Assembly (NCBI RefSeq): GCF_014925385.1
Contig: NZ_JACSDK010000017.1
Coordinates: forward strand, 124,001-188,000
DNA length: 64,000 nucleotides
Reading direction: 5' to 3'
Origin: Pelagibius marinus
Lineage (GTDB): Bacteria > Pseudomonadota > Alphaproteobacteria > Kiloniellales > Kiloniellaceae
Numbering within the stretch: position 1 is the first letter of the stretch; each line of letters starts with the position of its first letter. Position numbers and translations under genes: made by a program. The notes below the pieces were generated by a model. The model was not told the DNA's origin and made no database searches. It worked only from the letters and a program-made list of their open reading frames with translations. Positions 44,106 through 64,000 of this stretch are shown one piece after another.

Positions 44106-44393
44106 ATGTCGGTCGACAAGGAAACTGTCGCGAATATCGCGAGACTGGCGCGCGTTCGCGTCGACGAGAGCCACAAGGAATCGCTGGCCAAGGAATTGTC
44201 CAACATCCTGGGCTGGATCGAGCAGCTTTCCGAGCTGGACACCGAGGGCGTGGAGCCCATGACCTCCGTGGTCTCGATGAAGCTGCCGCTGCGCGAGGAC
44301 GAGGTGACCGACGGCGGCTACCCCGACAAGGTGACGGCCAACGCACCCGAGGGCGCCCATGGCTTCTACGCCGTGCCGAAGGTGGTGGAATGA
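44106..44393 (+). CDS. gatC: Asp/Glu-tRNA(Asn/Gln) amidotransferase subunit C
   Basis: A 95-residue subunit that stabilises the GatA-GatB interface. It begins [21 protein letters not shown], holds [20 protein letters not shown] and [20 protein letters not shown], all diagnostic. ATG 44106 with GAGG six bases upstream is chosen over a TTG three codons before. The stop overlaps the gatA start by four bases. First gene of the gatC-gatA-GNAT-gatB operon. Confidence 0.95.
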
Positions 44394-58220: not shown

Positions 58221-58406
58221 TCATTCGATCTCTTCCTTTGTGAGCAGGTCTTGGGGCCGGTCTCTGCCGGTCAGTTCGGCAAACACCGAGAGCAGGAAGC
58301 GAGTCTCGAAAATGGCGTCGCGCGCAGCGGCATTCTGCCGTGGTGCTTCCCGACATTGAGCCCCGTGAGAGGAGGGACGCTCCGCTGGTTGTTCCGATGT
58401 CGGCAT
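58221..58406 (-). CDS. Possible small hypothetical protein (61 aa)
   Basis: A minus-strand frame of 61 residues: the second half, RDAIFETRFLLSVFAELTGR then DRPQDLLTKEEIE, has codon third positions mostly G or C (roughly 70 percent by hand count), as in true genes here, while the first half is compositionally odd. No domain is recognised and no convincing RBS seen. It lies just downstream of ATTGC-type half-sites shared with the S24 repressor promoter, so it could be a target of that regulator. It may also be noise. Confidence 0.3.
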   Translation of the reverse strand: MPTSEQPAERPSSHGAQCREAPRQNAAARDAIFETRFLLSVFAELTGRDRPQDLLTKEEIE

Positions 58407-58457
58407 GTCAGTTCTCTCCGCACGTCATCAGCTCAGATCTTAGGTGTATTTTACGAT

Positions 58458-58476
58458 ATTCGCAATTATCTGCAAT
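58458..58476 (-). promoter_or_regulatory. Operator-like half-sites upstream of the small frame
   Basis: On the minus strand ATTGC and ATTGCGAAT occur 11 bases apart (plus-strand ATTCGCAATTATCTGCAAT). They share the ATTGCGAA core with the two sites before the S24 repressor but not their full length. Confidence 0.25.
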
Positions 58477-58587
58477 CAGAAAACGCCATCACTAGAAAAT
58501 ATTCGACCGATGAGTTAGCGCCGCTGGCGCCGTCAAATCGCGAGAGGACCAGCGGATTTATGAAATCCGCAATCAGCGAAGGCGCCG

Positions 58588-59205
58588 CTACCCGCGGGGC
58601 CGCAGCTTTACCCAGGTCACCGGCGCGACCCATTCGACAGGCACGTTCTGCTCAATGGGAGTTGCCGAGTTGACGGAGACCAGGGTCACCTCGCCTACTG
58701 CGTTGCCGGGTTCGACGATCTTCACGAGCTGGCGGCCGTCCTTGGTCTGCACCACGCATTCACGCCCGTAGCACTTCGCCAGGTCCAGCCCGTCGTCGCG
58801 GGAATACCCCAAGTGTTCGCCGTCGCGGAAGCGCGGAGACATGGAATTGCCCCGCACCACAACGCAGACGCCACCGCCTTCCCCCTGCGGGGCATCGATC
58901 TTGTAAAGACCGGAACCCTTTTCGTGATCGTCGACCGAGTAGACGGTCTCACCGGCGCCGACGTAGCCAACCACCAGGCTGGACGCCTTGGCGTCGCGAT
59001 TGACGAAGGCGCCAAGCTTGGAGACTACGTCTTCCAGCGACGTTTCCAGGTACTCCGCCATCTCCACCGCTTCCTCGATTTTGATGCTACGGCTTTGGTT
59101 GAGGATCTCGGTGATGCGCGAGGGGTCGAGCCCCATGTGCGTGGCCAGACCGCGTTGGGTCTTGCCAAGCTGGCGCAGACGATCTTGGAACCAGCGCTTT
59201 TCCAT
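58588..59205 (-). CDS. Phage-type repressor: HTH plus S24 (LexA-like) peptidase domain
   Basis: A 205-residue CI/LexA-like regulator. The helix-turn-helix lies at residues ~10-50 (KTQRGLATHMGLDPSRITEILNQSRSI). A linker leads to VVGYVGAGETVYSVDD, where the Ala-Gly pair matches the self-cleavage site of S24 repressors. The catalytic Ser is in VRGNSMSPRFRDGEHLGYS and the Lys in TKDGRQLVKIVEP. All elements for RecA-stimulated auto-cleavage are present. It is divergent from two small genes, and two near-identical 19-base sites lie just before its start, so autoregulation is likely. Probably a domesticated or prophage-derived switch; no structural phage genes follow. Confidence 0.9.
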   Translation of the reverse strand: MEKRWFQDRLRQLGKTQRGLATHMGLDPSRITEILNQSRSIKIEEAVEMAEYLETSLEDVVSKLGAFVNRDAKASSLVVGYVGAGETVYSVDDHEKGSGLYKIDAPQGEGGGVCVVVRGNSMSPRFRDGEHLGYSRDDGLDLAKCYGRECVVQTKDGRQLVKIVEPGNAVGEVTLVSVNSATPIEQNVPVEWVAPVTWVKLRPRG

Positions 59206-59214
59206 GAGTCTAAG

Positions 59215-59233
59215 ATTGCGAAATTTGCCATTT
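59215..59233. promoter_or_regulatory. Repressor operator-like site 1
   Basis: ATTGCGAAATTTGCCATTT lies ten bases before the S24 repressor start codon. It matches site 2 at 17 of 19 positions and contains TTGC-N7-GCCA, an imperfect inverted repeat. Confidence 0.55.
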
Positions 59234-59240
59234 GATGTCT

Positions 59241-59259
59241 ATTGCGAAATATGCAATTT
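59241..59259. promoter_or_regulatory. Repressor operator-like site 2
   Basis: ATTGCGAAATATGCAATTT, 26 bases from site 1, contains the inverted repeat TTGC-N7-GCAA. A further CGCAAT half-site lies at 59286-59291. Position between divergent genes suits control of both. Confidence 0.55.
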
Positions 59260-59340
59260 ATGTATTTGAAGGTTGAGCCGCAAGGCGCAATTTCTAACAC
59301 GCCGGGCCGAGGCCCAAGGAATGGATCAGAGAGGAGAGCA

Positions 59341-59874
59341 ATGCGGCCTAGAACGCCAGTCTCACACCAGCGGCGCACCACCACCGCCGCTGTGAAACAG
59401 CAGGCCCTGGACCTTCTGGCCGAGGCCCTGCCTCAAGGTTGGATAAGCCAGCCCCTGGCGCCGGGGGGCGCCCAGGGAAAGCCGGCCGCACCGCGGACGC
59501 GTCTTTCCGCCGCGTCGCGCTGTCCCGCTGCCGATATCCTGGTGATCTCTCCGCGTGGGCGCTGCCATTTTCTTTTCGTGCGGGCGCCGGCCGACCGCTG
59601 GTGGGACGGCGGCCCCAAAAGCGTGCCCGCCGAGGAGATCGGGGAGCGCGAGGCGGAGATGGCGCGCCAACTGCGTGCGGCCGGCCACCGGGCGCGGGCC
59701 ATCTGGGGAGAGCGGGACCTGCTGCGTGCGCTGAGGTCCTGGGGCTGTCCCCTGGCTCCTGATGCCGGTGTCGGGCGCGTGGACCTTTCGGCCGGGCCGC
59801 CGCAGCGCGCGAAGCCGCGCCGGCGGCGTCCGGTCCTGCATCTGTTCAGCGGTGGAGGACGGCTGGATGGGTGA
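59341..59874 (+). CDS. Hypothetical protein, possible VRR-NUC-like nuclease fold
   Basis: A 177-residue basic protein starting at ATG 59341 after GAGGAGAG. The middle part, ADILVISPRGRCHFLFVRAP then EEIGEREAEMARQLRAAGHRARAIWGERDLLRALRSWGCPL, has the order of strands and the ending (an L...G-x-P-L helix) of VRR-NUC/restriction-like domains. The catalytic E-x-K of such nucleases is not present, since VRAP stands there, so it may be inactive or a different fold. The C-terminus is Arg-rich. It is divergent from the S24 repressor and overlaps the next gene by eight bases. Function unknown. Confidence 0.6.
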   Translation: MRPRTPVSHQRRTTTAAVKQQALDLLAEALPQGWISQPLAPGGAQGKPAAPRTRLSAASRCPAADILVISPRGRCHFLFVRAPADRWWDGGPKSVPAEEIGEREAEMARQLRAAGHRARAIWGERDLLRALRSWGCPLAPDAGVGRVDLSAGPPQRAKPRRRRPVLHLFSGGGRLDG

Positions 59875-60412
59875 TGCGGGGACGAGCGCGTACGGGCAAG
59901 AGAAGCTGCGTCTCGAGGCGGCCGTGACGGAAGGTTTGCGCCTGGCGCGTGAGGCCGGACATGCGGAACCGAGTTTGCGTGACGCAGTCTGGGAACTGCT
60001 GTTGGAGGCCGCAGACACCTTGCGGCGCCTGCCCAACCGCGAGCAGGGCTGGTTGACCGCGGCGGCGCGCGCCCACTGGCCCGACTACGTGCGGAACACC
60101 GCCGAGGAGTTCGCCGGCGCGGTCGGCAGCGCGGGGCGGCAGACAGCGCCGGTTTTGCGGCCGACGCCGGCCCGGGCCGAGGCCATCGACCGCATGGATA
60201 CGGTGCTGCTGTGGCTGCCGCTGGCCGGCGGCGCCAATGCGCGGCGCGACGTTTCCATCCTCTTCGAACTGGCCTGCGGGCTCAGGGTGCAGGTCCTGCG
60301 TCAGCGCTTCGGCTGTGGTCGTCGGACGGTCTATGACGTGCGCGACCGAGGGGTGGCGCGGATCTGCGGCTGGCTGCGCAGCCAGAGCGAGCTCTGCCGC
60401 AAGCTGGAGTAG
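59867..60412 (+). CDS. DUF6362-like helix-turn-helix protein
   Basis: A 181-residue protein. GGAGG lies eight bases before ATG 59867, inside the previous gene. The last third reads AIDRMDTVLLWLPLAGGANARRDV then LRQRFGCGRRTVYDVRDRGV, resembling DUF6362 with a helix-turn-helix at the end, a type seen in alphaproteobacterial phage-derived loci. The middle region (HWPDYVRNTAEEFAGAVG) matches the family look as well. The assignment is from memory of the family pattern and tentative. A DNA-binding role is inferred. It closes the two-gene operon divergent from the repressor and is convergent with hspQ. Confidence 0.6.
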   Translation: MGDAGTSAYGQEKLRLEAAVTEGLRLAREAGHAEPSLRDAVWELLLEAADTLRRLPNREQGWLTAAARAHWPDYVRNTAEEFAGAVGSAGRQTAPVLRPTPARAEAIDRMDTVLLWLPLAGGANARRDVSILFELACGLRVQVLRQRFGCGRRTVYDVRDRGVARICGWLRSQSELCRKLE

Positions 60413-60418
60413 GCGGCC

Positions 60419-60742
60419 CTAGTTCGCCTGCAGCTGCTTGGGCACGTAGCGGCCGTCTTCGATGCCCTCGAAAAACTCTTCGATCTGCGGATGCCCCACC
60501 GCCACTCCGCTCTCGTCGACCACCAGGTTCTGCTCGGAGACATAAGCGACGTAGGCGGTTTCCTCGTTCTCGGCCAGCAGGTGATAGAACGGCTGGTCCT
60601 TGTCGGGGCGGATCGCTTCCGGGATCGCTTCCCACCATTCCTCGGTGTTGGAAAACGTCGGGTCGACGTCGAAGATCACGCCGCGAAACGGAAAGAAGCG
60701 GTGGCGGACGATCTCGCCGATCTGGAACTTCGCCGTGCGCAT
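60419..60742 (-). CDS. hspQ: Heat shock protein HspQ (YccV-like)
   Basis: A 107-residue protein with the single YccV/hemimethylated-DNA-binding domain: AKFQIGEIVRHRFFPFRGVIFDVDPTF and QPFYHLLAENEETAYVAYVSEQNLVVDES are diagnostic. In E. coli HspQ stimulates the Lon protease and was first described as a hemimethylated DNA-binding protein. It ends within seven bases of the convergent DUF6362-like gene. Upstream (60743-61137) is a long gene-free, AT-richer region that probably holds its promoter and that of the pseudopilin operon. Confidence 0.93.
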   Translation of the reverse strand: MRTAKFQIGEIVRHRFFPFRGVIFDVDPTFSNTEEWWEAIPEAIRPDKDQPFYHLLAENEETAYVAYVSEQNLVVDESGVAVGHPQIEEFFEGIEDGRYVPKQLQAN

Positions 60743-63814: not shown

Positions 63815-63842
63815 AAAAAATTGCGATCAACGCAATTTTTTT
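63815..63842 (+). terminator. Intrinsic terminator after the TadG-like gene
   Basis: AAAAAATTGCG (63815-63825) and CGCAATTTTTT (63831-63841) are perfect complements around ATCAA, and the 3' arm itself is the T-run. It lies about 60 bases after the stop. Beyond it (to 64000) no gene is visible. Confidence 0.85.
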
Positions 63843-64000
63843 GTTGCACAGTCCTGCTAAGGGCGTATCGCTTCTTCTCTAAGTCATTGGAAGATAACCG
63901 GCTTTTGCCGGAGCAGGGAAGCGCCTGTGTCAGCTCTGTGCCAGAAGGTGCCTTCTAGCGCCAATCAAGCCCAGCCTGCTGGGCCGGGCAGACCTCAAGG

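Follow-up and report, generated by a model that had tools for sequence, protein, structure and literature searches.

The locus considered here raises the question of what a compact phage-type switch controls in a stretch of DNA that holds no phage structural genes. It lies in 64,000 nucleotides of Pelagibius marinus (contig C17, positions 124001-188000 of a 5.4-Mb genome, G000), hereafter the window, and comprises an S24 repressor, paired operators and a divergent operon of two genes, one encoding a VRR-NUC-fold protein (vrr) and the other a DUF6362 protein. A first-pass annotation had described a compact self-cleaving-type switch of phage origin, without structural genes in the window and with two operators 26 bases apart beside the divergent operon; genes, sites and general character are all borne out, the operators being conserved in each of the seven genomes of the genus that bear the module. 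Our reading, to which we give a probability of about 0.6, is that the module is an SOS-type switch controlling a late operon, phage-derived and domesticated, and has been orphaned in the window genome. Its elements, in window coordinates, are the following.

58451..58465, no strand assigned: operator-like site, 107 bases beyond the 58558 site; in 7/7 genomes
58558..58572, no strand assigned: operator-like site directly past the stop codon of the S24 gene; in 7/7 genomes, second half weaker in several
58588..59205, minus strand: S24/helix-turn-helix (HTH) repressor, 205 amino acids; Pfam HTH_3 (33 bits) and Peptidase_S24 (25.7 bits), both above cut-off
59216..59230, no strand assigned: operator 1, TTGCGAAATTTGCCA, in the divergent promoter region; conserved in 7/7 module-bearing genomes
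59242..59256, no strand assigned: operator 2, TTGCGAAATATGCAA; conserved in 7/7 module-bearing genomes
59341..59874, plus strand: VRR-NUC-fold protein (vrr), 177 amino acids; VIA-align Z 11.8 to 4qbn, Foldseek ranks 1 and 2 both VRR_NUC
59867..60412, plus strand: DUF6362 (PF19889) protein, 181 amino acids; Pfam E 2.6e-9, 37.8 bits (cut-off 31), and phrog_6836 E 3e-15
60419..60742, minus strand: hspQ, the host gene bounding the module; TIGR02097 E 3.7e-40

Ala84-Gly85, Ser121 and Lys162 of the repressor are invariant in all ten sequences of alignment A6. We take Ala-Gly to be the expected cleavage site and Ser/Lys to be the dyad of LexA/CI-type repressors, the positions having been placed by eye. 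To judge from its sequence, the repressor retains the Ala-Gly and Ser/Lys expected of self-cleaving repressors, and these conserved residues make induction of the module by DNA damage plausible. A profile search of the PDB finds CI- and HipB-type HTH domains, and a PDB search with the single repressor sequence gave no relative.

The paired palindromes of the divergent promoter region start at 59216 and 59242, a spacing of 26 bases, and their form, TTGCG-N5-YGCAA, is recognisable in 7/7 genomes. Scored with a matrix trained on 32 sites from seven genomes, the four window sites (58451, 58558, 59216 and 59242) reach 19-23, the first-order Markov null giving 13 sites per Mb at a score of at least 13; because these four sites belong to the training set, conservation across genomes is better evidence than score. 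The related half-sites noticed in the first-pass annotation before a small frame at 58406 proved to be real, as the sites at 58451 and 58558, both kept in 7/7 genomes. The mini-regulon at which they had hinted gains these two sites as well as a palindrome at 63821, described below, and loses its presumed gene: the small open reading frame (ORF) at 58406 is not conserved, G004 alone among the six other genus loci having a 44%-identical piece. Elsewhere in the window, an operator-like palindrome at 44128 (TCGCGAATATCGCGA) scores 13.85, as high as the terS site at 63821.

The frames of vrr and DUF6362 overlap by 8 bases. For the first product a VRR-NUC-like fold had been suggested as possible, and the predicted structure (predicted local distance difference test score, pLDDT, 69) agrees, matching the VRR-NUC entries 4qbn, 4qbo and 4qbl with Z 10.5-11.8, the value of 11.8 covering 93/93 target residues; Pfam, PHROG and NCBIfam profiles gave no match at E ≤ 1, and no PDB relative was found by sequence. 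Although the fold is held in common with these nucleases, the position of ExK, which we take to be the catalytic motif of VRR-NUC, reads FxK or FxR in 6/6 aligned copies (alignment A1, by eye). With Phe in place of the catalytic Glu, the vrr protein is therefore probably no nuclease; its modelled fold suggests that it is probably a DNA-binding, non-nuclease derivative of VRR-NUC. Alignment A1 and the vrr identity figures given below cover six genomes, the G006 copy, which tblastn finds at 38% identity, having been left out of A1. Among the six papers listed in a literature search for inactive VRR-NUC proteins in transcription, none was pertinent.

The second product had been called DUF6362-like, an assignment that Pfam places above its cut-off. 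The DUF6362 model (pLDDT 81.5) matches three entries of the phage 21 Q antiterminator (Q21) with VIA-align Z 8.8-8.9 over 120-122 residues, the best being 6p1c (root-mean-square deviation 4.0). The next structural matches have Z of at most 6.3 and are mostly sigma region 4, AlpA reaching Z 4.8, and Foldseek alone did not place Q21 among the first 50 matches of the model. DUF6362 is a candidate Q21-like antiterminator or late regulator: its place ahead of terminase genes resembles that of Q21, and its predicted fold (Z 8.9) may do so, although the two are without detectable sequence similarity. None of the phage records encodes a DUF6362 relative at E ≤ 0.01, while two IMG/VR contigs do, and the family is named in no paper of the literature library searched. 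The present reading gives it a testable role as an antiterminator.

Conservation was assessed in 58 genomes including that of the window, eight of them forming the genus set (G000-G007). High-identity relatives of the S24 repressor and DUF6362 occur in 7/8 genus genomes and always together, which upholds for these two genes the co-occurrence that had been put forward as a check; the only genus genome without the module, G005, has an assembly that is 91% complete. Beyond the genus set, weaker matches were found in 3 further genomes for DUF6362 and in 19 for S24. The module adjoins hspQ in all seven genomes bearing it, the opposite flank holding trehalose genes in six of them, G004 being the exception, and its presence at one locus in 7/8 genus genomes argues that it is not recent prophage scrap. 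Identity to the window copies is 80-95% for S24, 54-83% for DUF6362 and 40-72% for vrr. Trimmed in-frame pieces, which were also used for fourfold divergence, yielded ratios of nonsynonymous to synonymous substitution rates (dN/dS) between G000 and G004 of 0.03 for S24, 0.13 for DUF6362 and 0.21 for vrr, some dS values being saturated; these ratios indicate purifying selection. Relative-rate counts show no acceleration on the G000 side. The module-related loci that bear names are six: four in Pelagibius, one in a Rhodospirillales bacterium and one in Rhodospira (44% identical).

What such a switch may control is suggested by the relatives of the window strain. In G002, G003 and G004, terS-terL genes lie just past tad genes, 2-4 kb downstream of DUF6362; what the G007 locus retains is terS with about 115 residues of terL. 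Terminase profile matches were obtained in 6/8 genus genomes, with none in G000 or G001; of the other matches, those in G005 and G007 are weak and that in G006 lies elsewhere. At the locus, copies of terL share 86% identity with one another, against 65-69% with a copy on contig C31 of G002 and 54-55% with the G006 copy, a grouping that would suit vertical descent with the host.

DUF6362 precedes terminase genes at other loci as well. On viral contig L087 it is followed by a short ORF and then by a large terminase, and on viral contig L085 late-looking genes come after it (by eye). A large terminase lies within about 2.1 kb downstream of DUF6362 in 7 of 12 longer alphaproteobacterial loci, which were hand-chosen, two of them since terminases had already been seen there, and two of the seven positives supplied probe sequences. 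A scan of 32 loci with 1.5-kb flanks took in 76 downstream and 53 upstream ORFs, overlapping frames included and one ORF hand-added. TerS and TerL families are found among the downstream ORFs, and of 54 divergent ORFs scanned in the vicinity of DUF6362 (up to 32 loci) 17 belong to Peptidase_S24, these being counts of ORFs, not of loci. By a motif count, 13 loci have a GDSMEP-type ORF beside DUF6362. Among the class loci, tblastn left 4/29 without a match, which were skipped, and the profile search covered all 29 and six others. Loci L167, L168 and L169, from three genomes of one other genus, carry S24-DUF6362 pairs with no terminase-probe match within 20 kb; between L168 and L167 the module alone aligns, so that the pair has moved.

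In the window itself, a remnant of the terS promoter is found near the right-hand end.

63821..63835, no strand assigned: palindrome TTGCGATCAACGCAA of the former terS promoter, an S24 operator and/or the terminator hairpin of the tad genes; score 13.7, RNA hairpin -14.5 kcal/mol
63844..63853, plus strand: remnant of the terS promoter with a -35-like TTGCAC, broken off at 63854 (CTGCTAAGGGC...); from comparison with G002, G003, G004 and G007
63955..64000, minus strand: 3' end of a tyrosine recombinase gene (Phage_integrase), which reaches to 65454 outside the window

In G002, G003, G004 and G007 the order is palindrome, TTGCAC, 17 bases, CATCTT and terS. The window has the palindrome and the -35 element (63821-63849) and then breaks off at a junction at 63854, common to G001 and nearly so to G006; in G007 the junction lies inside terL. 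Since the promoter remnant is cut at 63854, the late operon has been lost in the window genome. A profile search of the window assembly found no terL, the HK97 portal was not found in it either, and the portal and capsid of G004 type gave no match in 84 kb of the window genome. An operator-type palindrome stands just before terS, or before its former place, in 7/7 genomes, with scores of 13.7-19.3, and on this comparison of sequences control of terS by the S24 repressor is likely.

These genes and sites, their conservation, synteny and loss, and the predicted folds lead us to infer the following mode of action. Bound to the paired operators, the S24 repressor would shut its own promoter and that of vrr-DUF6362. 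A trigger, most likely DNA damage with RecA-assisted self-cleavage, would lead to production of the VRR-fold protein and DUF6362. Acting as a Q21-type antiterminator, the latter would load on the RNA polymerase at the late promoter, that of terS, probably partnered there by the VRR-fold protein as a DNA-binding factor, and the polymerase so loaded would read the long terS-terL-head-tail operon that lies 2-4 kb downstream in three relatives. This late operon has possibly been domesticated together with its particle genes, in the manner of a gene transfer agent (GTA). In the window genome it has been deleted beside the recombinase gene, leaving the switch without an adjacent target.

Several results weigh against this account. 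terS-terL is adjacent to the module in only 3/7 genomes, and the probe terminases were not found in 5 of the 12 longer DUF6362 loci. The match between DUF6362 and Q21 is one of fold only: a profile search of the PDB finds no relative, apart from two chance-level rows, and for a helical protein such as the DUF6362 model a Z of about 9 is not a high value. Counted genome-wide, the operator pattern shows no clear excess over a reversed-pattern control (67 vs 54 in G000, 39 vs 47 in G004, 55 vs 56 in G006 and 132 vs 99 in G002). The weakest link is the palindrome at terS, which may be a terminator, as it carries runs of A and of T and, folded for five genomes, gives a hairpin of -4.7 to -14.5 kcal/mol. 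In G000 (13.7) it scores no better than a site at 44128 (13.85) that is unrelated to it; in G006 the terS site (14.9) is outscored by another unrelated one (16.0), and G004 has a similarly scored unrelated site. Finally, terL diverges less at fourfold sites (0.33-0.37) than the genes beside it do (0.46-0.60), and this may point to horizontal exchange at a later date. Of the five palindromes folded, that of G003 has the poorest hairpin (-4.7) and scores best as an operator (19.3). An extensive operator regulon across the genome was rejected on the pattern counts, which show no clear excess over the reversed-pattern control in the four genomes named.

The lower synonymous divergence of terL would also fit a reading in which the late cluster is an unrelated prophage hot spot, where related podovirus-like phages inserted or spread in G002, G003 and G004, the palindrome is the terminator of the tad genes, and the S24 module is an orphan remnant of immunity or late control, unconnected with that cluster. 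The hairpin and T-run at the terS palindrome point the same way, as do a related prophage with a DnaB helicase on C31 of G002 and the integrase genes of one kind that directly adjoin the junction in G000, are close by in G007 and lie some 2.4 kb off in G001 and G006. We nevertheless consider this rather unlikely. The terL copies of the locus stand apart from the C31 copy (86% vs 65-69%), the palindrome keeps the same place in 7/7 genomes, and in G002, G003 and G007, not in G004, palindromes without a T-run are present inside the 5' end of terS. Moreover, Pfam recognised no family of integrases, repressors or replication proteins in any of 96 ORFs of at least 110 amino acids from the G004 cluster, a set that excludes ORFs crossing the border between loci L155 and L156, and most of them match no family; a weak PHROG integrase row (E 2.6e-4) belongs to a cluster protein whose best match is an internal virion protein.

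That the module is intact and not accelerating despite loss of the adjacent operon could instead indicate that in the window genome the switch has come to work in trans for the host, acting for example on lysis or stress genes as AlpR-AlpA does in Pseudomonas, and the pairs at L167-L169, with no terminase-probe match in 20 kb, would agree with this. Such a role is distinctly unlikely, given that no clear distant operator set is seen, that three exact pattern matches in G000, among the matches listed, are without evident common gene context (by eye), and that a recent loss of the late operon would look alike. We consider it highly improbable that the module is just a prophage relic in decay and serves no function. 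As regards the late cluster, the relic proposed in the first-pass annotation holds, since these genes are lost in the window genome and neither terL nor the HK97 portal was found in the assembly; the regulatory module, however, is intact and conserved, being present in 7/8 genomes with low dN/dS and conserved operators. The defence or competence module envisaged there as well was pointed to by no analysis, and no defence library, PADLOC included, was searched.

An SOS-type switch ahead of a late operon has counterparts in two known systems. In the RogA-GafYZ system of the Caulobacter GTA, an operon of two genes is repressed by an HTH-S24 protein, the second gene encoding an antiterminator that acts at the packaging operon, and RogA is reported to lack cleavage residues (PMC9632790, PMC11150451). 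In AlpR-AlpA of Pseudomonas aeruginosa, a self-cleaving repressor controls an antiterminator after DNA damage (PMC7969949). The Pelagibius module is a variant of this switch logic and a member of neither system. It has the same logic as RogA-GafYZ and an HTH plus S24 repressor, the Caulobacter sequence itself not being in the comparison, but the window repressor has the cleavage residues that RogA reportedly lacks, and the operon encodes a VRR-fold protein and DUF6362, whereas that of Caulobacter encodes GafY (DnaA_C) and GafZ (DUF6456). By profile comparison the activator pairs are unrelated (A5-A3 and A1-A4, probability 0.1, with shallow profiles). DUF6456 and GTA_TIM, the latter of the RcGTA-type cluster, were each found in 0/8 genus genomes, the controls matching in Caulobacter vibrioides; membership in RogA-GafYZ is therefore ruled out. 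AlpR-AlpA works alike without the module belonging to it: AlpA is a weaker structural match, and the neighbouring target in the Pelagibius relatives is a terminase/particle operon.

Repressors of the same kind occur beside the Caulobacter-type activators in other genomes of the sample. Strong S24 relatives elsewhere in the taxonomic order are divergent from a DnaA_C gene and a DUF6456 gene in G047, G053 and G035 (Pfam-checked) and, by eye, in G040. In G028 and G039 a DUF6456 gene is within about 2 kb of the S24 relative, and G033, which has the best E-value, is at a contig end without one. Four S24/DnaA_C loci have palindromes of the form ATGCG-N5-YGCAT about 39 bases apart, a pair similar to the operators of the window module, with one site degenerate; the count covers four of five S24/gafY regions, with L054 left out. 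S24 repressors of one kind are thus paired with different activators, DnaA_C/DUF6456 in some families and VRR-fold/DUF6362 in Pelagibius.

The nature of the late operon can be judged mainly from G004, whose cluster of about 40 kb is the one complete example, those of G002 and G003 running into contig ends. It encodes a connector (PF12236), a capsid protein (PF19821), tail proteins, a nozzle and a T7-type fibre. An array of at least five genes (L155:2543-19606 and L156:247-1734) has one conserved N-terminus of about 240 residues and variable C-termini, one of which is PBECR1-like, matching this polyvalent-protein nuclease domain below cut-off; a further ORF with a GH108 lysin domain looks like another member, and several of the genes are followed by small ORFs. 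The array resembles a set of polyvalent or polymorphic effectors borne by a phage. The G004 terL has no relative among the viral contigs, and the 136 phage records that match it are all below 60% identity. An HK97 portal is found in G004 and G007 only, away from the module locus, and tail sheath gave only weak below-cut-off matches, in G003 and G004.

On these data, which for the particle come mainly from one complete cluster, we tentatively propose that Pelagibius may possess a new, independently domesticated particle of T7 type (podovirus-like), either GTA-like or toxin-delivering. It would be controlled by a self-cleaving repressor, a dead VRR-NUC recruited as a partner in transcription, and DUF6362, which would then represent a new family of Q21-type antiterminators, and would carry the effector array, the window strain having lost the particle and kept the switch. 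If the cluster of the relatives makes particles, it would constitute a podovirus-type GTA-like system, of which no report was found in the literature searched (PMC9662315 among the sources). No literature on Pelagibius and gene transfer agents was found, and Pelagibius and prophage returned one metagenome survey.

Three further observations concern late promoters, late-gene order and the junctions. The terS promoters of G002, G003 and G004 have GCAC repeats with a 9-base step from the -35 element, a possible loading element for an antiterminator. In G009, of the same family, a prophage DUF6456 (GafZ-type) gene (L107:7517-8119) lies immediately ahead of genes for an HNH-like protein, a large terminase and a portal-like protein, and occupies the late position seen for DUF6362. 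A sequence of 9-12 bases, CTGCTAAGG(GCG), is present at the junction in the window (63854), G001, G006 and G007, near single or tandem tyrosine recombinase genes; these junctions have two different left end points, and the sequence may mark one end of a mobile element, based on a recombinase, that brings about deletions next to it.

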